From Watersipora subatra (lineage: Eukaryota > Bryozoa > Gymnolaemata > Cheilostomatida > Watersiporidae): DNA of 64,000 nt. Of the stretch, positions 1,377-63,220 are shown in pieces. The notes below the pieces were generated by a model. That model saw nothing but the letters and a program-made list of their open reading frames with translations. It was not told where the DNA came from and made no database searches. A program made the translations under genes and the position numbers. The stretch covers positions 47,463,772 to 47,527,771 of the forward strand of contig NC_088714.1 of assembly GCF_963576615.1 (NCBI RefSeq). Reading direction: 5' to 3'. Numbering within the stretch: the first letter of the stretch is position 1; each line of letters opens with the position of its first letter.

Positions 1377-1607
1377 TGTTGTATAAATCAATGTACTCAC
1401 ATGTACTGATGTGAAGATGAAAGAGCCTCTGTCTTTCGTTACACTTCCTTGTATCCTCCCCATACTGCCTTACACTAGCTAATCTACTAGCTTTGCCCAC
1501 TAGCTTTATCCAGCTTTATGCACTCACCGTAATTACCAAGACCACCTGTACTGCCTTGAGCTTAGACACCAATATAGCCTGAGCCTAACAAATCCCATAA
1601 TACAACA
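1377..1607 (-). repeat. 3' LTR (minus-sense)
   Basis: A 231-bp direct repeat of 4634-4867 with short inverted ends TGTTGTAT/ATACAACA. The two LTRs differ by a few substitutions and small indels, so the insertion is fairly young. Confidence 0.92.
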
Positions 1608-1630
1608 TGCCCTTTCTTTTTGTCTTTTTG
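1608..1630 (-). promoter_or_regulatory. Polypurine tract
   Basis: Read on the minus strand, the 23 nt directly before the 3' LTR are nearly all A and G, ending in AAAGGGCA. That is the expected position and composition of the plus-strand priming tract of an LTR element. Confidence 0.7.
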
Positions 1631-1777
1631 TTTTGGGCCACTCCATCACTACCAACAAGCAGACGTAGTAACTTACCTTACTTGTGTTGCTCGTTACCTG
1701 ACTCCGTTAGGGCAGTCTCCATAGGCTATGCCTCTGGCTTCTCTGACCCTATGCCACCGTCTAAAGTACTCTTCTCG

Positions 1778-2512
1778 CTACTGCCAGCTCCATTGCCAGT
1801 CTGCACTGGCTTTTCCATCACCCTGACCTCCGCCGCTACCAATACTTTTACTGTGACCACTGTCACTACCAACACTACTTCCACCAACATCACCAACACT
1901 ACTTCCACCAACCCTGACTAGCCCGGAGTCTTTTGGTTGGGTCAGTAATGACTCTTCAACCTCATCTCCGTCTCTCCCGTCTTTACCTCGCTCTCCCCAG
2001 TAAGAGGCAGGCTCGACAGGCTTCCTGTGGGAGGTCTCCACCTGGGCCGTAACCGGCTGCACAGGGGATGGCACCACAGAGCTGGGAGTTGGCATAGGCC
2101 CAGACCTATCTAGCTCGACCTCACCTGCAACCAATGCAGGTCTGCTACCAGCAATTCTCCTCTGAACCTCGGCTAACTCCTGCACCACTACCCTGAATGC
2201 CTTGAAATTTTCCAACTCCATGACTGCTGCCTCCCGTTTGGCTTTCAGCTTAGCCAATTTCTTCTTCGACTTCCTTTGCACCTCCCTTTCCTCTCTTTCA
2301 ATCTCTGCTACCATTTTCTCATGACCTTCTCTGTCTAACATTCCATTGCTGGATACCTCGGCTAAAAAAGAGCAAATCTTTTCCATTACAGACACTGGTT
2401 CAGCTACTTTCTCAGCACCTTCCCTTACCTCATCATGACTGTGTTCTCTATCACACCCCATAGACACTTGCACATCTCTGGTGCTTTGGGCTGTCCCCCC
2501 GTTGACTACCAA
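1778..2512 (-). CDS. LTR element third ORF (244 aa, unknown function)
   Basis: A 244-residue ORF that overlaps the protease ORF by about 60 nt in another frame and ends before the polypurine tract. It contains a charged Glu/Lys/Arg-rich helix near residues 50-115 that could form a coiled coil, then a Pro/Val/Thr-rich linker and a Gly/Ser-rich tail near the C-terminus. No zinc, RT, RNase H or integrase motif is visible. In complete gypsy-like elements this position would hold the pol C-terminus or an additional ORF, so it could be the surviving tail after deletion of RT and integrase, or an accessory protein. I do not recognise a family. Confidence 0.55.
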   Translation of the reverse strand: MVVNGGTAQSTRDVQVSMGCDREHSHDEVREGAEKVAEPVSVMEKICSFLAEVSSNGMLDREGHEKMVAEIEREEREVQRKSKKKLAKLKAKREAAVMELENFKAFRVVVQELAEVQRRIAGSRPALVAGEVELDRSGPMPTPSSVVPSPVQPVTAQVETSHRKPVEPASYWGERGKDGRDGDEVEESLLTQPKDSGLVRVGGSSVGDVGGSSVGSDSGHSKSIGSGGGQGDGKASADWQWSWQ

Positions 2513-3041
2513 TTTCTACGTATTCGCTACTCTTGACTCCCTTGGTATTACAAGTCCACCAATCTTGACCTGTATGACCTTTCTTAACTTCGCTCTCTCT
2601 GTCAGACTTATTTGTCAGGTTTTGCAACTCGACATCATCTGAAACATAACTTGACCCAGCAATAACAATTCTCGACGACAACGGCTTAACTGGCTTAATA
2701 CTTCTACACTCCTTAACAGGCTCAAACTTTCTTTTGCATAACGCGTTTACAACAGCAAATAGTTTTAGCAGCTTCAACTCAGTTATGTCCAAAAAGTTTG
2801 TTCTCAATCCTTTCACCACATGAACTTCAGCATCCATATGCCTGTTTTTACTTTCCAAATGAACTATTACACTTCCAACCACTTTTAACTCACTACCATC
2901 AGCAGTTTCTAAAACTGTCGACGGTTTCTTTAACCGTAGGTTCAACTTGTTGGCTGTTGCTTCGGTTAATATTGACAGCTCAGCCCCAGTATCAAACGTA
3001 AACTCTACATTTACTCCATTAACTTCTAAATACTGCACCAT
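2451..3041 (-). CDS. Retropepsin-like aspartic protease ORF
   Basis: A 196-residue ORF following gag. The aspartic protease signature FDTGAELS is at residues 16-23, with the catalytic Asp at 17, followed by beta-strand-rich sequence with a hydrophobic VVGSVIVHL segment, as in retroviral and gypsy pepsins. In complete elements RT would follow; here the reading frame runs through a Ser/Lys-rich stretch and stops with no RT motif. Known retropepsins cut the Gag(-Pol) polyprotein in the particle. Its initiation is unclear: the gag ORF stops at 3200, so translation would need a frameshift, suppression, or the Met at 3041. Confidence 0.8.
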   Translation of the reverse strand: MVQYLEVNGVNVEFTFDTGAELSILTEATANKLNLRLKKPSTVLETADGSELKVVGSVIVHLESKNRHMDAEVHVVKGLRTNFLDITELKLLKLFAVVNALCKRKFEPVKECRSIKPVKPLSSRIVIAGSSYVSDDVELQNLTNKSDRESEVKKGHTGQDWWTCNTKGVKSSEYVEIGSQRGDSPKHQRCASVYGV

Positions 3042-3199
3042 TCTCTGGCCTGGTCAACTGTCATCGTCATATTTATCCCTCGAACCAGAGAATCTAACAC
3101 TTCTGCCCTTACTATTATCCCGGTACCTTTCATCATACCAACTCGTCTCGTGCCTCTTCTTGTACCGGTCCCCCTCAAGCCTATCTATACTATTGTCCC

Positions 3200-4357
3200 T
3201 TATCTACTCAACTTGTCTCTTGTCTCGCGGGGGCTTTCTCGGCCCCTGTACCTCCCCCTACTAATATCCCTGCTGCCATATCGCTCATAGCTACTATCAC
3301 GGCTACCTCCTGACCTCCTGCTACTACCTCGTCTATCGTAACCTACATCTCCTCCCTTATCCCTACAATAACGTGATACATGTCCTCGCCGTCCACAAGA
3401 AAAACATTTAATGTGGGGACAACTCCGCATCTCATGGCCACTACCTCTGCAATTATAGCAAACTCTATCTATATTTTCTCTACTGTTTTCTCCATGTCTA
3501 GAGACATACATTTTCCTGCTATTGTCTCTATACTTCCTACTGCCACTGTCCTTGTTATACTCCCGGCCTCTTGTCCCATATCTACTAGTATCATGTTCCT
3601 CACTACCATAATACCCTCTACTACTCCTAGGGCTACCTCTAGGGGAAGATCTACCCACTGAATCGTAGCTTCTATCTCTATCATTACTCCTGTACTGCGC
3701 TCGGCTATCAAACTCTGATATCTTTGATACTTCTCTCTTAACCTCACTTTTTAAATCAGTACTTCTACCCTCATTTTTCTGAAATCTATCCGAGTTGTTG
3801 GCCATTTCACGAGCCCTCAATGCCTCATGCAATAACGCCCAAGTAAGATTGGCATTCTTCATTAAATCTCTGCTTACTTCTCCATCTCTCAACCCGTTAA
3901 CCGCCACTATAAGGGCAAACCTTACCCTATCATTATTGTTAGCCACCTCTGCATATCTGCTCAAACTCTCTACCCGTTGTAAATATTCTCTATCACTTTC
4001 TCCAAGTGCCTGCTTAGCCATCAGAAACTTATGCCCCTTTACGAACATACTCTCTTGTTTACCATAATAGTCCTGCAAAACTTCCATTGCCCCTTCATAA
4101 GTAGAATTTACACCATCTACATTAAATCCTGCACCCCTCAATACTTCTCTACCACTGTGCCCAATAGCTCTCAACAGTGGCACTAACCTAGCTCTACCTC
4201 TCATAATAGGTACCCTATTGCCATTTTCATCATTTACATAACCTCTTCTCTCGACAGCACTTTCTATACATAAATTCATCTCCTCTATAAATCTCTCCCA
4301 CGAACCATCACCGTGCTCACCGAACACCAGCTTCGGCAAACCACTCTCCATCTTCAC
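3200..4357 (-). CDS. Gag-like nucleocapsid protein with two CCHC zinc knuckles
   Basis: A 385-residue ORF, the first after the 5' LTR and primer site. Residues 1-190 are mainly helical with a conserved-looking YLQRVESLSRYAEVA segment, as in the capsid-like gag domain of LTR retrotransposons. Residues 215-300 are rich in Arg/Ser/Tyr. Two CX2CX4HX4C knuckles lie at about 300-313 and 318-331, followed by an RG/RS-rich tail, all typical of nucleocapsids that bind and package RNA. The ORF is open throughout, unlike the missing pol region, which suggests selection for gag or recent insertion. Confidence 0.88.
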   Translation of the reverse strand: MKMESGLPKLVFGEHGDGSWERFIEEMNLCIESAVERRGYVNDENGNRVPIMRGRARLVPLLRAIGHSGREVLRGAGFNVDGVNSTYEGAMEVLQDYYGKQESMFVKGHKFLMAKQALGESDREYLQRVESLSRYAEVANNNDRVRFALIVAVNGLRDGEVSRDLMKNANLTWALLHEALRAREMANNSDRFQKNEGRSTDLKSEVKREVSKISEFDSRAQYRSNDRDRSYDSVGRSSPRGSPRSSRGYYGSEEHDTSRYGTRGREYNKDSGSRKYRDNSRKMYVSRHGENSRENIDRVCYNCRGSGHEMRSCPHIKCFSCGRRGHVSRYCRDKGGDVGYDRRGSSRRSGGSRDSSYERYGSRDISRGRYRGRESPRETRDKLSR

Positions 4358-4615
4358 TCAACACAATATATCTCTCGCCACAAATCTACTCTACCCCACT
4401 CGTATAAGTTTAATGTAATTGTCACTTCCAAACACGTAATAAATATTTACACCTCACCAACACCAATGCTTCACCGCTACAACACCTCACAATACCACCC
4501 TACCTCACGTCACCTCACCTGCACGCCCGTAAAAAGGTCTAATCAACTGTTTAAACTTAACCCTGTAGCCAGAAAAATGTTCGCTAATGATAACACAAAA
4601 AGAAAAAAAATCAGA

Positions 4616-4633
4616 ATTTTGTCAACTGTGCCA
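4616..4633 (-). promoter_or_regulatory. Primer binding site
   Basis: On the minus strand the sequence next to the inner end of the 4634-4867 LTR begins TGGCACAGTTGAC. TGG is complementary to the CCA end of a tRNA, as in LTR-element primer sites. I cannot name the tRNA. Confidence 0.6.
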
Positions 4634-4867
4634 TGTTGTATAGATCGATGTACTCACATGTACTGATGTGAAGATCAAGAAGAGCCTCTGTCTTTCGTTA
4701 CACTTCCTTATATCCTCCCCCATACTGCCTTACACTAGCTAATCTACTAGCTTTACCCACTAGCTTTATCCAGCTTTATGCACTCACCGTAATTACCAAG
4801 ACCACCTGTACTGCCTTGAGCTCAGACACCAATATAGCCTGAGCCTAACAAATCCCATAATACAACA
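4634..4867 (-). repeat. 5' LTR (minus-sense)
   Basis: A 234-bp LTR matching 1377-1607 along its length and ending in the same TG..CA inverted termini. It is followed by the AAATA target duplication at 4868-4872. Confidence 0.92.
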
Positions 4868-7516: not shown

Positions 7517-8355
7517 GCACTCATGTTGTTGTTAGTCTTTATGGCTAGTCTTTTTGGAACCTTTTGAATAGCTGGGTTTACATCCAGCTAGTAAAGCTAA
7601 AATTGGCCTGCCTGCAACCAATAATCTACAATGTTGCTGTACTACTATGCAATTGGTTCATCACAATCATCAGTAACCTAACAGATTGTCAAGCACATGA
7701 CTGACTTGTAAATGTACTACGGTTAAAGGTTGACTTGCAACAAAATTCACATTACAGTTATTTGGTATCAAAAAATTCGCCATGTCTTACTCTATTGTGT
7801 TGTAAGTGCCAAATATGTGGGAATGTGATTAAAAGCTCGTAAAAGCTAAAAAACGAACAGAAAATCGCAGCCACACGAGACCGCCCTAGTTTGGATTCGT
7901 TTTCCAGAACGGCTAAAATGTGACGTATGTGTGCTAAAACGGCTAAAATGTGTGCGAGATAGTTTATGTTTACACTTTCATGCATCCTTATTCGTCGAAC
8001 TATTTTCACAAATATACTTCACGCTTGCGATAAAAACCATGTCTATTGTTCTTACGCGTCTATTTTATCGGCATCGTAATGCTGCAACTTTGAGCACTGA
8101 TATCTCAAAACATAGCATAAAAATATGTTTAATTTTTTAAGCTTAGCTTGAACGATTGCATATCATTCTCTGATAAAAATGATGAGCCTTTTGGTCCGCT
8201 ATGATGGTTGAAAAATGCTGTAGAAATTTTTCGCGCCATATAGCGGGAATTGTAAGTCACATGATCAGATAATGTTAGTTTCAGTTCAAGTTTGATCTAT
8301 CGCAAATAGCAAACACGCTATCTCGTATTAAACTTGTTTATTTCAATTCGTCATA

Positions 8356-10318
8356 ATGTCTAACGCGCCACATAGTGTTTGTGCAGCTGCCAAGCTGAGA
8401 AGCACCTTTTTTTGTCCAATAGCTGAGAAAAGACTAGACCTTCACCGGGCGTGGAGCAACTGGGTGAAGCTGGATGTGACAAACTTTATTTATTCGCCTG
8501 CTTACTCTTACCTTTGTTTTCGCCAGTTCAAAGACGACATGTTTTCTAACCTGTTTGCATACTCCACATATCACCAAAGCACGTGAGTGATTTATTTTAT
8601 GAACTACTTGTATTAGTAGTTGTAACTCGGGTTATTATCTAGTATTCTCCTAATAGTACTGTATTAATCTATATTTAATATAACAATATTAATGTCATTT
8701 AATTGTAATATTATATTATTAGTATTTTATCTTTTTAATTACGTGTATTATTCTTATTATAATAACAAAACTAATTCACACTGCATATCTATCTGTAAAA
8801 CGTAATATATTAATATATAATTGATAAAATAATGTTGTTTCACGATTAATTTCGCCAAATTTCTTAACCCCACTCACTTATAGATATGTTATATAAAATA
8901 GTTATTGTCATTTTTTGGTATCATCGTTAATAGCGTATTAATATTATTAGTTGATTATTATTAGTATTAGATGAAGAGTTTGTGCCAACCACTGAAGACT
9001 GGGAAGAGTTTGAGCGCTATGTTGGCCAGCATCAAACGCTCTCCAATTACATGTAAGATAGAGCTGAACTAAACCAAACTTGACAAAATATAAAAAATAT
9101 CCATAGAGTTATTACTCACATTTTATGTTTACAATATCATGGATTCTGATAGGGTTTTGTAAAATCTGTGTCATGATTGCATGGCTATATATTTATTCTT
9201 TTTCTGATCAAGCAAATATGATATAATAACAGGAAATGATATTGTACAAATCTTATTGCAAGTCAACTATTGTGTTGTGATTTCAGAACCAAATCCTCCT
9301 TCAAAGAGGAGAAAATAATAGTAAGTGTGACAGCACTCCAGCGACTATTTCACTGTCACACCTGCGCCCTCCCCTGCTCATTCACGATGGTGCGAGAAGG
9401 CGGATGGGTAGAGTTCAAGGTTACATGTGCCTCCTGTCACCGATCGTACACTTGGGAAACAACTGCCAGGGTGAACAGAGCTCACGTCATCAACCCCCTG
9501 CTGGCAGCTGCATCACTCTTTTCTGGCGGATGCCTTACGCAGAACCTCCGTTTTCTGTCGCTCCTGAACATCGCAATACCAAGCCAAAGCGTTTGCCTCT
9601 ACCAACAAAGAGAATACTTACATGGTGTGAGTGTTAATATTTACTCATAAACTTGGAAAATGTGAGTAAAAGCTTGGCACACTAATTGAATAACAACATT
9701 TAGAAACAATTTTTTTTTGAAATGAAAATATGTCATCCTTCAAGCAAAATATATTATAATTCAAAATTCTGATTCTTCATCATAATATAGCACAAAAAGG
9801 GGGAAGAGGATTCTACATTCTTAGACTAATGATAATGATACAAATTAATCTTGTATAATGAAGTTTTACAATATATTACAGTGTATTGCTGAGCAGTGCA
9901 CCCTGCATAACGAGGGATTGATGGCAGCAATCGATTGGGAGCTTGATTTGGCAGGTGACGGTAGATGCGATAGTCAGGGGCATTGCGCACTATACAGAGC
10001 CTACACTATGATGGATCAGAGCTGCGGTTTAATAGTCAGCAGCCATCTTGTCAAGGTAAAACTTTGACAGTTTTTACTTCACAGCCTGACAAAAACCCAA
10101 ATTTTTTAGTAGTTATCAATACATAAACATGAAGTTGCTCATCTAGCTAAATAGTTCATTCAAATAATGTGAAAGTAATTGTTGGTCATAACTTTCTTTA
10201 CTTTGCAGTCAACAGAGACCACCAGCTCTAACACCATGGAACTGAAAGGCTTCAAGCGATGCCAGTCCGATCTAATTTCCCACGGCCTGAGAGTGAGGTC
10301 CATTACAACGGATGTTGT
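8356..10318 (+). pseudogene. Kolobok transposase with THAP-like N-terminus, 3'-truncated
   Basis: Five exons: 8356-8582, 8971-9052, 9287-9626, 9882-10055 and 10209-about 10318. Exon 1 from its ATG resembles a THAP DNA-binding finger (HRAW..WVK, then PAYSYLCFRQFKDDMF), but the final His of the C2CH set is Gln. Exon 3 has two CX2C pairs and the block LLAAASLFSGG with IPSQSVCLYQQREYL. Exon 4 carries LAGDGRCDSQGHCALY, the family's GDGR-D-SPGH catalytic block; exon 5 carries MELKGFKRC and SITTD, the expected second-Asp region. Exons 2-3-4-5 join in phase; exon 1 to 2 does not. The downstream catalytic part is absent, so this copy should be inactive. Family identity is from remembered motif patterns, not a search. 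Confidence 0.8.
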
Positions 10319-10321
10319 TAC

Positions 10322-10524
10322 AAAGGTTGTGTGCATACTGCAAGCTTGTGTTTTGGCTTATGCCGCAAATTTGTCGCCGTGAGCGACGGCCTCTACCTGC
10401 ATGCTTGGTGTCTAAGATTCGGGCTCTTTTCCCACCAACGGATGATGAAGAAGAGTTTGCAGACTTGCAAACAAGATTTGCGGCATAAACCAAAACACAA
10501 GATTGCGGTATGCACACAACCTTT
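10322..10524. repeat. 49-bp inverted repeat around a 105-bp spacer holding a gene segment
   Basis: Arms 10322-10370 and 10476-10524 are inverted copies differing at 3 of 49 positions. Each arm encodes the segment (K/Q)RLCAY.(N/K)LVFW on its own strand. The spacer (10371-10475) encodes, on the plus strand, the C-terminal half of the P2X7-type domain, opposite to the rest of that gene. No target-site duplication is evident at the arm edges. Confidence 0.85.
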
Positions 10525-11396
10525 TCCGAGCATTTGGCGATGGCTCTCCAAATGGGAATAGATTATCTACCAAAACAACTATTGAAAAACAATAATTGCT
10601 GATCATCAAAATAATCTCGATCTTTATATAATAAAATCATAAAACTAATACACTCTCTACTGTAGTAAGTGTACAAGCCAAATATACCAGTCCTCCTTGT
10701 GTTCCACGAGTTCAGAATATGTGTGTTCAAGTGATGCATTAAATGTGTAACACAAGAATTGTAGATAATGCTTGACACATTAGCATAGCCTTGGTGTTGT
10801 TGGCATTAAATGAATATCCAACTCACTATGATATCGCAGGTAATTATTCCACCTCAACTCAAGGGGTGCAGACGCCACAAATTCGTTTACATCAGGATGC
10901 ATACGCAGGCATTCATGCTCCCCTCGGTCAAGGAGACAATGTGCAAACTCAGCATAATGGCAGCACAAACATTCAGGAAGAGATGGCATGTCTTGACAAC
11001 GCTCGTAGGCACATCTGTAGCCGGTGGTATTAGCTCCTAAAGAAATGAACAGATATGACTATGCAACCATAGCTAATACATCAGGTCGATGTTATCCAAC
11101 AGTATATCAGTGCAGCACTAGATTTAAATATTAAAATTGTTAATGTTGTCATTCGAGAAAAATCTGTAATTATCTTTTCGCAATATTGAAGCGATAATTA
11201 TCATCATTAAAATCATATATAATAATATTCGTTCTATCACTCTCAAGCTAAAACTATTACTACTAGCTAGCTTGGCACATAAGAGCTGGCTAGTGGCGGT
11301 GCTTACTTGCTGGGAGGTTTGATTCTGTTGAGGATCTTCTTCAGATAGAGCGTCAGGCTCGAAACGCCAGGGTCTTAACTCTTCAGAATTTGACAT
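10476..11396 (-). pseudogene. P2X7 intracellular (ballast)-domain protein carried by Kolobok
   Basis: Exon 1, 11396-11307, reads MSNSEELRPWRFEPDALSEE and ends at GTAAGC. Exon 2, 11036-10827, has Cys-rich CAYERC...ECLCC and then HECLRMHPDVNEF. Exon 3 starts at 10566 and has NARKRLCAYRNLVFW before the frame leaves the domain at 10476. Exons 2 and 3 join in phase; exons 1 and 2 are off by one, so a small exon or an indel is missing. The cysteine spacing, CAYR and the later PLPACLVSKIRALFP match the C-terminal cytosolic domain of vertebrate P2X7 (ILPSCCRWRIRKEFP), which occurs alone in many invertebrate proteins. The last part is found inverted at 10371-10475. There is no channel domain. Function in the element is unknown. 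Confidence 0.75.
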
Positions 11397-11786
11397 TTTT
11401 TATGATAGCAACTCAGACATGAATAGTCGAACGGAATGGCCAAGCCGAAACTGTAAAGTAGCGAGCATCTATATTTGATACGGGGTCTTAGATAAAACCC
11501 GAAGTGATTATCATAAACTATTGCTACGATAAGTTTGATATTGAGCTTTTTATTGGCCTTTCAATTCACGCGAGAACATCACGTGACAAGACAATGACCA
11601 TACAGCGCGGATACGTCATCGAAGTCAAGAGATTCCAATCTACGGCGGCCTTTTGTTTTTGAGCTTTTAAGAGCTTTTAATCACATTTCCACATATTTGG
11701 CACCTACCACACAACAGAGTAAAACATGGCGAATCTTTTGATACCAAATAACTGTAATGTAAATTTTGTTGCAAGTCAACCTTTAA

Positions 11787-12448: not shown

Positions 12449-15400
12449 TTAATAGTGGTTAACCTTAAACAGACACACAGATTTGCCTCCCCATGTAGGA
12501 ACTGCCAGTTCTTTTCTTCCTCTAATACTTATTTGTCCACAGAAGTCTGGTAGATTATTATTACTAATCTCTTTCATCATATCACCTACCAACAAATATT
12601 ATGTATATTAGACTGTGTAATAAAGATAAGATATCGAGTTAGTTGTTAAACCTAATAGAGTTACTTTAACATCATTTTATACAGACTGAAGATCTATAGA
12701 TAAACAAACCTTCAGGAGAGATGATGTAGATAGTCTTTATTCTAGAGCTGACATAAATGAATCCATCAATGTCAGAGGTGACAGTACAGGCCTCATCCAG
12801 TCCTTCACAAGTCCAGATGGTGGTAAGTTGATCATCTTCAATTCTACATCTAATAAGATTATTTGAAGACACACTCAGTGTCAGCAGGTCTCCATCTGGT
12901 AAGAAGTGCAGATCGAATGGTCGTATACTAGGAGTTAAAATCATTGTTAATTTAGTAGTAAAATTGTAGAGTACTAGCTTTCCCTCATCAGGGTTAATAG
13001 CAACTATGTAGTCTTTACCAACAGCAGCTTCTGATGCCGCTTTGCCCAGATAGTTGAAGGAAAACAACTTCTCTCTCTTGCTAACTTCAGACAGGCACTG
13101 ATAAACAGTCCTCTCATTTCCATTATCATGCAAAATGTAAACGATGTTATTGTATACCCGAACAGATGTTACTAGTAAGTTTATTACTCTTGCTGTCAGC
13201 TTGATCTCTTCTGAAGCACCTTTATTCAGACATTTCACTCCATCACCGCATCCCAAAAAAAGTTTGTCATTTCCAGCATATGCAGCTGAGTAACATCCAC
13301 TGTTAGTAGAGTGTTCAGATATAAAAGTCAGTGATGTGGGGGTAGCAACTAACTTTGGCTGCTGTAGAAGTTGATTACCTATAAAAGTTAATCATAGTAG
13401 CAATGTAGCAATAATTCTTTGACATTTAATTTCATTTTTCAAACCTGTAGTTCAAACCTACAGCACACTTTATTTTTGCAAATGTCCAGTAAATTGAATG
13501 CACGGTAATACAGTGAGATTGAATAATCACACTTGGAGGCTAGAAAACATAATATAAAAGTATGATTGATCAGACTTCAGATACTTTATTCTAGCTTACG
13601 AACTTTATTTTATGAAATTTCATTTATTATCAATTGGCTGACACGTAACAGTCATACAACTTTAATACGATCATTTCCTTTTTCACGTGTGCACACGCTC
13701 GGGCGCACACACACAAGCGTGCACGCGTGCACACATATGTATGTGTGTGTAACAAATAACCACCATCTTGAACTATAGTTACTCCATTTAGTAACAGATT
13801 CAAATGACACTCTTGTGGTTATATTACTTGTACCTCCATATTTCCAGTGTTCTTGTATGTAATAAAAAGTTGAATTTCTGGGTTGCATCATATATAACAA
13901 TCTATACTTGTGTTGTAAATTTTCTGAAAACTATGGGACTTTTCATTACATTCTTCAATATATGCTGAGAAAATAAAATTCAATGCGCATTGTTTGTTTT
14001 ACTATTAAAAACATACTAAACCTAAGAACTGTTTTGCGGTTTACAACTTTTTGTATTTTTGTTCTTGTTTTTTATAAATTTTTGCTTGTGGTCTGCCTTT
14101 ACTATTAGCCATCACTACTTTTCTTTGACTTTTCTCTTTTTTCCACTTCTCTTCATATCTTTTATCTTTTTAGAACTCGTAAAATATAGTCACTACAAAG
14201 ATATTCAACTCTTCTCCAAAATTAAATTATTTTTATCTTTAATTTATTTGGTTATATTATAAACGCATGACGTTAGTACATCAATAAAATAACTTGGAAC
14301 TTACTTCACATACTTTTATTTATTTCAACATTCCTATTTATTTTTGTCATGAACTAAAAATAAAACGAAGATTTAGGTACAGACTCTCTCATAAAAGACT
14401 GTGCACAACCTTACAACTTTGGTGTAATCAATAGCAAATTGCAAAATGTAACCAAATCACATTGCTGACTGTCTATCTATAAGCACAAAAATTGAAGGAA
14501 TTTGTCAAGTTTTTACGATATGAATCATTCTTGAAACATCTAATCCATTCAAATTATATGAAAATGTATTTAAGAATGTTTAAAGGTTGACTTGAAACAA
14601 AATTCACATTACAGTTATTTGGTATCACAAGATTCACCATGTCTTACTCTGCTGTGTTGTAGGTGCAAAATATGTGGAAATGTGATTACAAGCTTTTAAA
14701 AGCTCAAAAACGAAAAGTTGGTCAGCCATTATGAAGAATCACGAAAATGGTCATAGATTGGAAGACGTAGTTGAACACGATGTGCTTCTGTTTACATTTT
14801 CATGCAGCCTCATTGGTCGAAATATTTTCACAAATAAATTCTGCTATTTCAAAGCCTAGCCTAAAAATCAGCTTAATCTTTTAACCTTAGCTCATGGGGG
14901 TACATATCATCCTCTGATAAACATGAGGACCGTGTCAGTCACTCGTGGTGGTCGAAAAAAGCTGCAGAAATCGTTTGCGTCATTTGGCAGAGAATATGGG
15001 TCACCTGATCAGATTATGTTAGTTTCAGTTTAAATTAATTGCAACTAACAAAAACAGTAAAGTAGCGAGCATCTATATTTGAAAAGGGCTTTCCTTTTAA
15101 GCCTGAAGTGTTTGTCATAAACTAGCGCTACGAGGCGCTTTATATTGCGCCTTTAATTGGCCTTCCATTTCACATGATAGCATCATGGGTCTAAACAATA
15201 ATCACGTCGAGTTGAATACGACATCAAAATGAGGGATTCAAACTTATGGCAGTTTTCGTAATGGCTTTGATTAACTGCTTGTTTTTGAGCTTTTAAGAGC
15301 TTTTAATCACATTCCCACATATTTTGCACCTGCAACATAGCAGAGTAAGGCATGGTGAACCTTTTGATACCAAACAACCATAACGTAATTTTTGTTTAAA

Positions 15401-16249
15401 ATCAACCTTTAAAGAGTATTCATGACACATGATGAAGACTCTTGTGTAAAACATTAGATGTAGAATAATGATCAGGATATTTCAAACCAAATTTTTTTTG
15501 CTTGTTTGAGCTCCAATTTAGTGGTAAAATTCAGTTTTACTTCTTATATAATTTGTTAAATTTTTCCTGAAACTAGAGCTGGGTTGCTAGAAATTAATAT
15601 TGTAATAAATCAGGTCTATATTCCCTGCCAAAACGTAACTAACTTTACTCACTGCTGTGTATGAGAGCTGGAGTCCTGGTAAGTGGGCAATCAACCTTTA
15701 CATCTGTGTTATTCACCAGCTCATCTGTCATCTGCTGCCTCTGCTCCACTTTCTCAGTCACATGACTCTCTCTCAACCACTTCCTTACTTCTGAACATGA
15801 CTCCTCCAGTCTCTCTTTCTTAGCCATTAACTCTGTGTTGTATAACTCTACTTGATCTGTCAGCCCTCTCTGGTACTCATAAATCTGCTCCTTTAGTTTC
15901 TCACTTTCCTCTCTGATCATTTCAATCTGTCAAACAATCACATTCAAGGTGGTTTTTATGATTTTAATCGAACTGCTAATAATAGAGAAAACAATCAGTA
16001 CATCAAACTACCTGTTCATCACGTATTCTTTCTATCATCTGTATTCTCTTAGCACACTCAACTTCCTCCTCATCTAGAACATTCCATATCTGTTTGTCTA
16101 ATATACATAACTCTGTTAACTTCTCACTTGCTTGTTCAAGTAAGTTGTCAAATTCAGCGTTTATTTTTTTCTTTAACGTGTTCAATGAAGTGAATGTGTG
16201 GCCACACGGAGACTCTGTAAGAAGCAAACATGAAATATATAATTAGTAG

Positions 16250-48655: not shown

Positions 48656-48666
48656 ATAAACTTTAA

Positions 48667-49564
48667 AGGTTGACTTGTAACAAAGTTCACATTACAGTTA
48701 TTTAGTATCAAAAGATTCACCGTGTCTTACTCTGTTATGTTGTAGGTGCAAAATATGTGGAAATGTGATTACAAGCTCTTAAAGCTAAAAAACGAACAGG
48801 TAATCGCCACCATCACAAAACTGCCATAGATTAGAATCCCTTTCCAAAATGGCTCAAATGGGACTTAACTGAACAAGATGGCTTCTGTTTACACTTTCAT
48901 GCAACCTCATTCACCGAAATATTTTCACAAATATACTACACGCATTCAATAAAACCATGTACATTGTCCTTAGGTGTCTATTTCATCATCAATGTAATGC
49001 TGTCACTTTGAGCAGTGATATCTCAAAACTTACCATAAAAACCCGTTTCATTTTTTAACCTTAGCTCAAAGGAGTGCATATCATCATCTGATGAACATGA
49101 TGAGACAGTTCATCACCTGTGATAGTGGAGAAATGCTGCAGAAATTATTCGCGCTGTTTTGCAGGAAGTATGGGTCACCTGATCAGATTACGACTAGACG
49201 ATTAGACCAAGCTAAAACAAAACTGTGAACTGGCAAGCATCTATATTTGGTAAGGGCTCTTCGGTAAAACACGAAGTGTTTGTCATAAACTAGTGCTATG
49301 AGAAGTTTTATATTGAGCCTTTTATTGGCCTTTCAATTCACGTGAGAACATCATAGTCAAAACAATAATCAAATGGATTAACTACGTCAGAAAAATAGAC
49401 TGATTCCGATCTACGGCGGTTTTGTGATGGCGGCAATCAACTGTTCGTTTTTGAGCTTGTAATCACATTTCCACCTATTTGGCGCTTACAACACAGTGGA
49501 GTAAAACATGGTGAATCTTTTAATACCAAATAACTTTAATGTGAATTTTGTTACAAGTCAACCT
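48667..49564. mobile_element. Kolobok MITE (TTAA) inside the Tigger-like element
   Basis: An 898-bp copy, TTAA both sides (48663-48666, 49565-49568), AGGTTGACTTG-type TIRs. It sits between the two direct repeats 48340-48655 and 49575-49885. Confidence 0.88.
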
Positions 49565-49574
49565 TTAAAGCAAT

Positions 49575-51070: not shown

Positions 51071-54000
51071 TTAGCGACTGGTTAATTTTAAGTTAATTTG
51101 TTTGGCCTTCTGTATGACTGGAAGAGCAAGTGTCTGAGAGGATGAGTCCAGTTCGAGCTCTACGCTCCCACTAGAGGAGGCCGATGCCGACACCTACAAA
51201 CAGCAAACATCAGGAATGCCACACTAATCACTTGAACAATCATTCCTAGCTGTATTTTAGCACAGGCTACTTAGCTGTACTAACTCTAAAAACCTCTAGT
51301 TGCTATTACATTTCAACAATTGTTTGGCTCACTTCCAATAACCACTATTGTGATCTTTTTGAATATGCCAAAAACTCCCAATCAAAAGATTTTTTCACAC
51401 AGTTTGTTTGATAGCATAAACACGTTAACTCCTTTGCAACCGACTAACATTCATGTGATTTACTTTAAATATACAGTCATTCTCAAAGAATTCCTATAAT
51501 TGAAGTTATTACTATAAGAGAGAGTGTTGAGGTAAATTAACAATTCAATTTTCACAATAACCATCCGAGTCTCCGCTTTCAGATGGTATTAAATTCAAAT
51601 CAAAAACTCATATTAATTACATGTGGACTTGTGTCTCAAAGGAGGTAGTTTTAGAAAACTTCCAATTTTCAATTACTTGTTGAAACAAAGTTGGACTTGC
51701 ACCATAAAATTAGTATAATATAATAAATTAGGAAAAATAATTGTTTTATTACATCAAATACAAAGATATGAATATTATCCAAGTATGTAGCAATTAGTCA
51801 TGAAAATCATGGAACTCTAATCTAGGACTTTTCCTCGCTAGTATCATCCTTACAACCAAAACATGAAATCCACATGCCAGTATGTCTCAAATAAACTGTG
51901 ATAAACATTTAAATTAGTAAAAGTATGTTCAATAAACTCTGCTCTTGACTTTTCGCACATTATAGGCAGCTCTAAGAATCAATATGATTCTATCGAAGGT
52001 GAATGATAATTTTAGACAGACTATGACTCACTACCTAGAAAGTGCATTTTTTTACCATGCATTTGCATAACAATTCAAATCGTCAGAATGAAAAGTTAAT
52101 AATAACTTTGAAATATTGCAAAAAGATTCTCTTTGCTATTCACCATGCCTTACCCTTGCACAGAGTAAGACATGGTGAATCTTTTGATGCGAAATAACTG
52201 TAATGTGAATTTTGTTGCAAGTCAACCTTTAACCTTTAGACTGCGACATTATTCCTTGCTCCAAGGTCTACAGTGCCACTTTTTTTTCAATTCAAAAACA
52301 AAGCATTTTGTTTTGGCTCTTGCTCTGTTATTACTTGGCCTGTCTAGCCTAAATTAATAATATATATTATTAGAACCTTTTAAACACTAAAATAAGACCA
52401 ATAGCACTCGTTTTGGTGACTTTATAGCGAACCAGATGATGTTGAATACAAAAAGCTTAATCAAGCTTTTCACAAGAAAAAACAACCATCTGGGCTCGAG
52501 TTTATATTTCATGAATGCTAGCCATTTCATTTTACCGCTAGATGTGTTAAGATAACAACATGAAAGCAATTTGATCAAATTAGAATAAATTAATGCAGAG
52601 TTATATAATGTAATATAAATATAATACCAACCGGAAATGGTCTCTGAAAAAACCAGAGAGATCGACTAATATATAAATTTGTATCATTAAACTTTGATTA
52701 TCGATAGCAGAAACTTTCTAAAATTGAAGTCAATGAGTGCTGCCACACAAAAGGTTTCGGATTCAAACTAAAAAACATTGTAACAAAAACATAAAACACT
52801 GGATAAAAATGTATGTCTTTTTATAAAAGCGAATGGTTTTGGATAACGGACTTGCAAAACATCGTTTTTCTACTGATGAATAAAGCAATTACCAAGCAAT
52901 ATAGCAGCTTTCTTTTAATTTTTATAGATGGACACAAGTTTAACCTGTGTAAGAATTTGGGGTAATGGGCTGTCATAAAGTTTTCAAAGTGTTGATAATA
53001 TTCAACCCTTTCGTGGGCGGATTTTCAGGACTATATCAGAACCCCTGGGCGAATTAATTTTTCGGAAAATCAATTTCTTTTAAAAGGTTTATACACTCTT
53101 TTGTATGTTATTGTATGCATATATCTATGTATAAACATGCATATGTATACATGTATATGTCCAGATGGATATATATCAATATATTACAAATGAATAAAAA
53201 TGTATAACATGAAAATATTTATATATGTAGATCTACCAAGATAAATATACATGTATATATTGTATATCTTTTTATAATACAAGTGTACACTTTAATAAGC
53301 ACAATTTCTGTATAATATATCCAAAAGCATTCTCCTTTGCAAAGGCCTACATCACAGTATTTGCACCATGTGCTTATTTTTGTCTTTTTGTACCAATCAC
53401 ACAGCATCTACTGGAGTAAATACTGGACCTGTCACTACTACAAACTGATGAATGGTAGGAGATTTATCTCTTTTTATATTATTAATATTCTTTCAGGCAC
53501 TGGCATCACCCCACCCACATCATCATGATTACTGCTACCAGCTTTTTCATCAATACCACTTCCAGATGTAAAATAATTACAATCACAATTTGAACCTGAT
53601 TCATTGTCATCTCTGGCTACTAAATCTAAAAAGTCACAGTCAGTTGTGATTCTCTTAGTAACTCCGGTACTAGTACTTGCTGTATTAGAATAATCACAGA
53701 GAGTTCTCTTAGAAGTCGTCATGACGATAAACTAAAATAAAACTCTCGAAGCTTTCAGTAAATAGCGGCTAAAAATAAAATTAAAATAATTAAAAAATTA
53801 CTCAAAAGAGTTTTCTAATTTTTTTCACAATTTTTATTCATTTATTAGTGCTAAAAACAATCGTTTTGTGCAAATCAAAAATTTTTTTTAGGCTAACCAA
53901 AGCCAATATATCGTAGCTTGCTATCGATTAAAAAAGTAAACCAAAAACGGCATTTAGCTAACCAAAAGCCGCAATAAAAAAAATATGTTTCTATGGTGAC

Positions 54001-62163: not shown

Positions 62164-62167
62164 TTAA

Positions 62168-63074
62168 AGGTTGACTTGCAACAAAATTTCCATTACAGTT
62201 ATTTGGTATCAAAAGATTCACCATGTCTTACTCTGCTGTGTTGTACGTGCAAAACATGTGGAATTGTGATTACAAGCTCTTAAAAGCTCAAAAACGAACA
62301 GTTAATCACCGCCATCACGAAAAGGCCGTAGGTTGTAATCGATTTATTTCTCTGACGTAATCAAAGTTTAGTTATTGTTTTAACACGTGATGTTATCACG
62401 TGAATTAAAAGGCCAATAAAAGTCTCAATATAAAACGTTTCGTAGGGCTAGTTTATGACAGACACTTCGGGTTCTACCAAAAACCCGTGTAAAATATAGA
62501 TGCTCGCTACTGTACAGTTTTGTTTCGGCTTGGTCTAATAGTCTAGTCGTAATCTGATCATGTGACCAATACTTCCTGCCAAACAGCGCGAACAATTTCT
62601 GCAGCATTTTTCGACTATCATAGATAACCAACAGGCTCCTTATGTTTATCAGAGGATGATATGCACTCCTTCGAGCGAAGGTTAAAAGATTGAACAAATT
62701 TTCACGGTGTGTTTTGAGATATCAGTGCTCAAAATGACAGAATTACAATGATAATGAAATAGATGCTTAAGGACAATAGACATGGTTTTATTGAATGCGT
62801 GAAGTATATTTGTGAAAATATTTCGACAAATGAGGCTGCATGAAAGTGTAAACAGAAGCCATCTTGTTCAGCTACACCCCAGTTGAGCCGTTTTGCAAAG
62901 GGATTTTAATCTACAGCGTTTTCGTGATGGCTGCGATTAACTGTTCATTTTTGAGCTTTTAAGAGCTTGTAATCACATTTCCACATATTTTGCACCTACA
63001 ACACAGCAGAGTAAGACAATGTGAATCTTTTGATACCAAATAACTGTAATGTGAATTTTGTTGCAAGTAAACCT
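62168..63074. mobile_element. Kolobok MITE
   Basis: A 907-bp copy with AGGTTGACTTGCAAC TIRs; TTAA at 62164-62167 and a mutated TTAC at 63075-63078. Its interior matches the copies at 48667 and 14584. Confidence 0.88.
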
Positions 63075-63220
63075 TTACATAACTCGCTATAAATCTGCAT
63101 ATTTATAAGGTATACAACAATAATCTATCAAATGATACAAATATATATTCATGAAAAAGTGACATAACCGAACCCTACTTATATGACATGAAGAAACAAA
63201 ATATAACAACTTTAAAACAA

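Follow-up and report, generated by a model that had tools for sequence, protein, structure and literature searches.

The locus described here raises the question of whether a gene for a ballast domain, the domain known from the C-terminal end of P2X7, belongs to the DNA transposon in which it lies or to the host genome of the bryozoan Watersipora subatra. In the present study, a 64-kb stretch of the genome (the window, meaning the whole of the DNA analysed) was examined, and the element at 7727-11782 is very probably a Kol0-type Kolobok DNA transposon that once carried two genes and is now degraded. A preliminary description of this DNA had proposed that the ballast gene is the second gene of the transposon, and this proposal is supported herein, as both genes lie inside the terminal inverted repeats (TIRs) and the arrangement agrees with the report of Kojima & Bao 2022 (PMC9587614). 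In that report, Kolobok elements of the Kol0 lineage encode KolX, a ballast-domain protein, as their second protein; the gene in the window is therefore called KolX below. The GC content of the window is 36.0%, compared with 35.0-36.0% across the W. subatra chromosomes as given in PMC12902671, and nothing was found in the window with Rfam at gathering thresholds.

First, the element spans 4,056 bp, with TTAA read on either side at 7723-7726 and 11783-11786 as the target-site duplication and with 131-nt inverted ends around an interior of 3,794 nt. Repeat comparison places the left TIR, which starts with AGGTTGAC, at 7727-7857 on the plus strand and the right TIR at 11652-11782 on the minus strand. 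When TTAA is included, the two arms (7723-7857 and 11652-11786) are identical at 125 of 135 nt (93%), which is far above chance, and the long TIRs flanked by TTAA that the preliminary description had reported are thus borne out. The 4-bp TTAA duplication is that of Kolobok elements, and the termini AG...CT follow the rule 5'-RR...YY-3' given for Kolobok by Kojima & Bao 2022 (PMC9587614). Both sets of exons lie wholly inside the TIRs and are convergent, with the transposase on the plus strand and KolX on the minus strand.

Second, the plus-strand gene encodes the beginning of a transposase. The predicted W. subatra protein P0010 begins, at MFSN, inside the first coding exon (8356-8582), and the GT donor at 8583 fits a splice to the next exon, which is Cys-rich and lies at 9287-9626, with boundaries taken from the sequence and from P0010. 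Comparison with the same protein puts DGRCDSQG, the region of the first catalytic D, in an exon at 9882-10055, and the last exon as present (10209-10382) runs through SITTD into a foldback, where it is read through to a stop (VVTKV...NLSP stop). P0010 is identical to the window transposase at 237 of 243 residues, and its splicing agrees. A weak match to the Pfam 'Mutator-like transposase' family was obtained with the Cys-rich exon (23.3-23.7 bits, under the cut-off of 26.5) and was gone once the five transposase pieces were joined. The locus had been described at first as carrying a 'THAP/Kolobok-type transposase'; the transposase is upheld by P0010 and by the weak Pfam match, but the THAP domain is not, as the 76-aa first exon (8356-8583) had no Pfam match at E up to 10. 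The window copy and P0010 agree with a further relative, P0011, until the second catalytic D (ITTD), after which the foldback and a stop follow; the DxxH motif and the last E of the Kolobok DDD/E signature with C/DxxH are absent from the window. The remaining part of the transposase is held by P0011, the closest relative, in which CDSPG, ITTDRH, DAWH, and ELESFH at 16, 77, 101, and 193 give this signature by motif only. P0011 had no Pfam match, its structure model from one sequence was poor and gave no fold support (pLDDT 33.4), and a scan of viral contigs with it returned 1 pattern match, with 0 confirmed. Since the transposase ends after the second D, the truncated window copy cannot work as a transposase by itself, and because DxxH and the last E are lacking, the assignment to Kolobok leans on TTAA, the ends of the element, and one relative.

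Third, the minus-strand gene encodes a ballast domain. Exon 1 (MSNSEELRPWRFEPDALSEEDPQQNQTSQQ) was placed at 11307-11396 from exon reading and relatives, the cysteine-rich exon 2 lies at 10827-11036, and the 5' part of exon 3 (NLFPFGEPSPNARKRLCAYRNLVFWFMPQ) lies at 10476-10566, with the splice boundary read by eye; the C-terminal half of exon 3 (RRERRPLPACLVSKIRALFPPTDDEEEFAD) has the opposite orientation to all other KolX sequence and lies on the plus strand at 10371-10475. All five peptides listed in the preliminary description are present, with FEPDALSEED in exon 1, ECLCC and HECLRMHP in exon 2, and KRLCAYRNLVFW in exon 3 on the minus strand, and with PLPACLVSKIRALFP inverted on the plus strand. 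The proposed identity with the C-terminal domain of P2X7 also withstood a profile check, in which the joined exons passed Pfam P2RX7_C (PF20478) at 25.3 bits (E 1.6e-5, cut-off 23.5); the domain without the inverted piece failed (11.5 bits, E 0.29). Among the W. subatra relatives, P0001 scored 37.3 bits and P0002 scored 21.3 bits, just under the cut-off. A KolX profile built from 32 of the 33 listed relatives (P0013 was left out) matched four sequences in the PDB at E up to 1, every one of them P2X7, the best being 6u9v at 2.4e-5, which we take to be rat P2X7; a PDB search with a single sequence found no P2X7. By Pfam with the exons joined, and by profile, the element thus encodes a KolX with a ballast domain, as Kol0 elements do. 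In the P2RX7_C ballast domain, two zinc ions are surrounded by seven conserved Cys, and the pattern CxCxxC...CC...C...LPxC, present in 3 of the 3 long relatives checked (P0001, P0026, and P0031), would map to these seven residues; in exon 2 of the window, Tyr stands in place of the second Cys of CxCxxC. P0001, modelled with 32 sequences, gave a structure of moderate quality (pLDDT 66.5, pTM 0.56), with blocks of 85-89 at residues 111-150. Scans with the KolX alignment gave 13 pattern matches in viral contigs and 66 in bacterial and archaeal contigs, with 0 confirmed in each case. The splice pair that fits ELIPPAT... of the relatives consists of a good donor that follows 11307 and a good acceptor that precedes 11036, and in the window this pair puts exon 2 out of frame with exon 1 and breaks the cysteine-rich frame. 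Within the ranges tried, thirteen other GT-AG pairs keep the frame, two of them using the donor after 11307 with acceptors before 11058 and 11001, and therefore the frame break alone is no proof of a dead gene.

The ballast domain occurs in vertebrate host genes (P2X7 and nanor), and neighbours of ballast genes are reported by Rump et al. 2020 (PMC7016195) to be shared across invertebrates; the gene in the window might accordingly be viewed as a host gene into or around which a transposon jumped. However, the KolX exons found lie within a single pair of TTAA-flanked TIRs, published Kol0 families encode KolX (PMC9587614), and four close W. subatra relatives lie on contigs that match at least four tzWatSuba1.1 chromosomes in length, namely P0001 on chromosome 2, P0002 on 4, P0003 on 6 (it sits on two contigs, and the chromosome of the longest is given), and P0004 on 1, as matched to PMC12902671. 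This dispersal indicates a mobile gene and contradicts the single host gene that the preliminary description had itself named as evidence against its reading, and we consider a host gene here hardly credible. The transposase relatives were matched in the same way to chromosome 8 (P0010) and chromosome 2 (P0011), the latter shared by P0001, and the closest proteins to the genes of the element are from W. subatra. Another explanation is that a stray ballast gene was taken up once by one TIR family, with no connection to the published pairing of Kol0 and KolX, in keeping with the single copy, that in the window, in which KolX and transposase were seen within one TIR pair. Such a capture is very unlikely, since Kol0 elements with transposase and KolX have been published from several phyla (PMC9587614), and a second independent pairing is therefore the less simple reading. 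We retain the interpretation of the element as a degraded Kol0-type Kolobok copy. In an intact relative, the DDD/E transposase would cut at the TIRs and insert at TTAA, and KolX, presumably a small protein that binds zinc, would aid transposition or its regulation; the idea that a zinc-binding KolX assists the transposase is a guess based on the pairing of the two genes.

The connection between the ballast domain and Kolobok, which the preliminary description treated as apparently undescribed, had in fact been published by Kojima & Bao 2022 (PMC9587614). According to that report, KolX resembles human P2X7 residues 476-595, P2X7 originated when a P2X4-like gene was fused with KolX, nanor is a likely further domesticated KolX, and earlier work had not identified the ballast proteins found in a range of animals as belonging to Kolobok. 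The route suggested at first for the gain of the domain by a P2X receptor is the same as the conclusion of these authors; that the ballast domain of P2X7 came from a KolX gene of the kind carried by the window element is thus a published conclusion. Like the Kol0 elements with KolX in that report (Kolobok-1_XT), the window element has a TTAA target, 5'-RR...YY-3' ends, and both a transposase and a ballast-domain KolX, whereas its host is a bryozoan and the copy is broken. For KolobokP and Kolobok-1_CCri, the authors describe a second gene that is encoded on the complementary strand, and they name Bryozoa for the KolobokP lineage; the hosts named for Kol0 in the part of the report concerned are vertebrates, annelids, cnidarians, and sponges, with Bryozoa not among them. 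With the C-terminal domain of P2X7 (PF20478; 6u9v), as judged by Pfam and profile matches, the window gene shares the CAYR...W and LPxC...R..FP core and the Cys-rich part, but it is small, separate, and inside a transposon, and it lacks the P2X channel part. The Nanor and ZCD proteins of Rump et al. 2020 (PMC7016195) are likewise stand-alone ballast-domain proteins of many animals; unlike KolX in the window, they were described, across animals and with shared invertebrate neighbours, as genes without a transposon link, and the main text of that report has 0 occurrences of 'transpos'. The published Kolobok origin of the P2X7 ballast domain has therefore been recovered from raw sequence, which provides one more example and no discovery, and the list of hosts with KolX-bearing elements gains a bryozoan. 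The presence of KolX in Bryozoa is a new detail, which may already stand in Repbase.

The foldback that interrupts both genes spans 10322-10524 and consists of 49-nt arms, 94% identical, around the 105-bp centre at 10371-10475, and it splits KolX exon 3. The first arm (10322-10370, plus strand) is, by inverted-repeat match, a copy of the KRLCAY..FW..PQ part of this exon, and the second arm (10476-10524) belongs to the exon itself. Because the transposase stops at the second catalytic D, with its end absent, and the inversion splits exon 3, the last of KolX, neither protein can be made whole, and the window copy looks dead. The possibility that an intact exon simply flipped between repeats already in place was rejected, as each arm is itself a copy of KolX exon 3 sequence. 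The foldback would therefore have come first, through a reversed duplication of part of the exon, accompanied by loss of the end of the transposase. P0010 ends in the identical foldback junction, and either the foldback is present in at least one further record or P0010 represents the window locus in the reference. In P0013 (82 aa, on a 5.4-kb contig), KolX exon 3 continues without a break across the centre and reaches the same tail (LQTRFAA); as read from this protein, its centre therefore faces the opposite way to that of the window. Two isomers of one foldback are the simplest reading of these records, and the two apparent orientations of the centre are a new detail. We also suggest, as a rather doubtful possibility, that the 105-bp centre flips, facing one way in the window and P0010 and the other way in P0013, and that copies with a foldback where the two genes meet occur as two isomers, which, having spread although broken, would give both genes alternative 3' ends.

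Three smaller copies with the same TIRs, spanning 837-914 bp, are present elsewhere in the window at 14579-15415 (approximately 0.84 kb), 48661-49570 (approximately 0.91 kb), and 62164-63077 (approximately 0.91 kb), the last with TTAC instead of TTAA on its right flank, and a lone fragment of one terminal repeat was matched at 52160-52232. The small copies match only the non-coding end parts of the element; neither transposase nor KolX was found in the first of them, and seven peptide pieces, searched by tblastn at E up to 1, had no match in the three copies or in the fragment. They look like non-autonomous derivatives and would have been moved in trans by intact relatives. The preliminary description had looked to full-length copies without the domain as evidence against its proposal; the three copies do lack the domain, yet at 0.84-0.91 kb they also lack the transposase and are not full-length. 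As apparent derivatives without either gene, they count neither for nor against the link between KolX and the transposase. Three non-autonomous relatives of one TIR family within 64 kb represent a high copy density.

Two further features lie in the window. On the minus strand at 12672-13391, adjoining it, there is a 239-aa open frame that is propeller-repeat-like by eye and had no Pfam match at E 0.01. At 1458-4867, also on the minus strand, there is a probable short gag-protease retroelement; between its repeats, the only other listed open reading frame of at least 180 aa (1778-2515) had no Pfam match at E 0.01, and of the two remaining frames, one has a zinc knuckle (3200-4357) and the other a gag-type aspartyl protease (2451-3053). 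The 150-nt direct repeats of this retroelement, at 1458-1607 and 4718-4867, have 2 differences.
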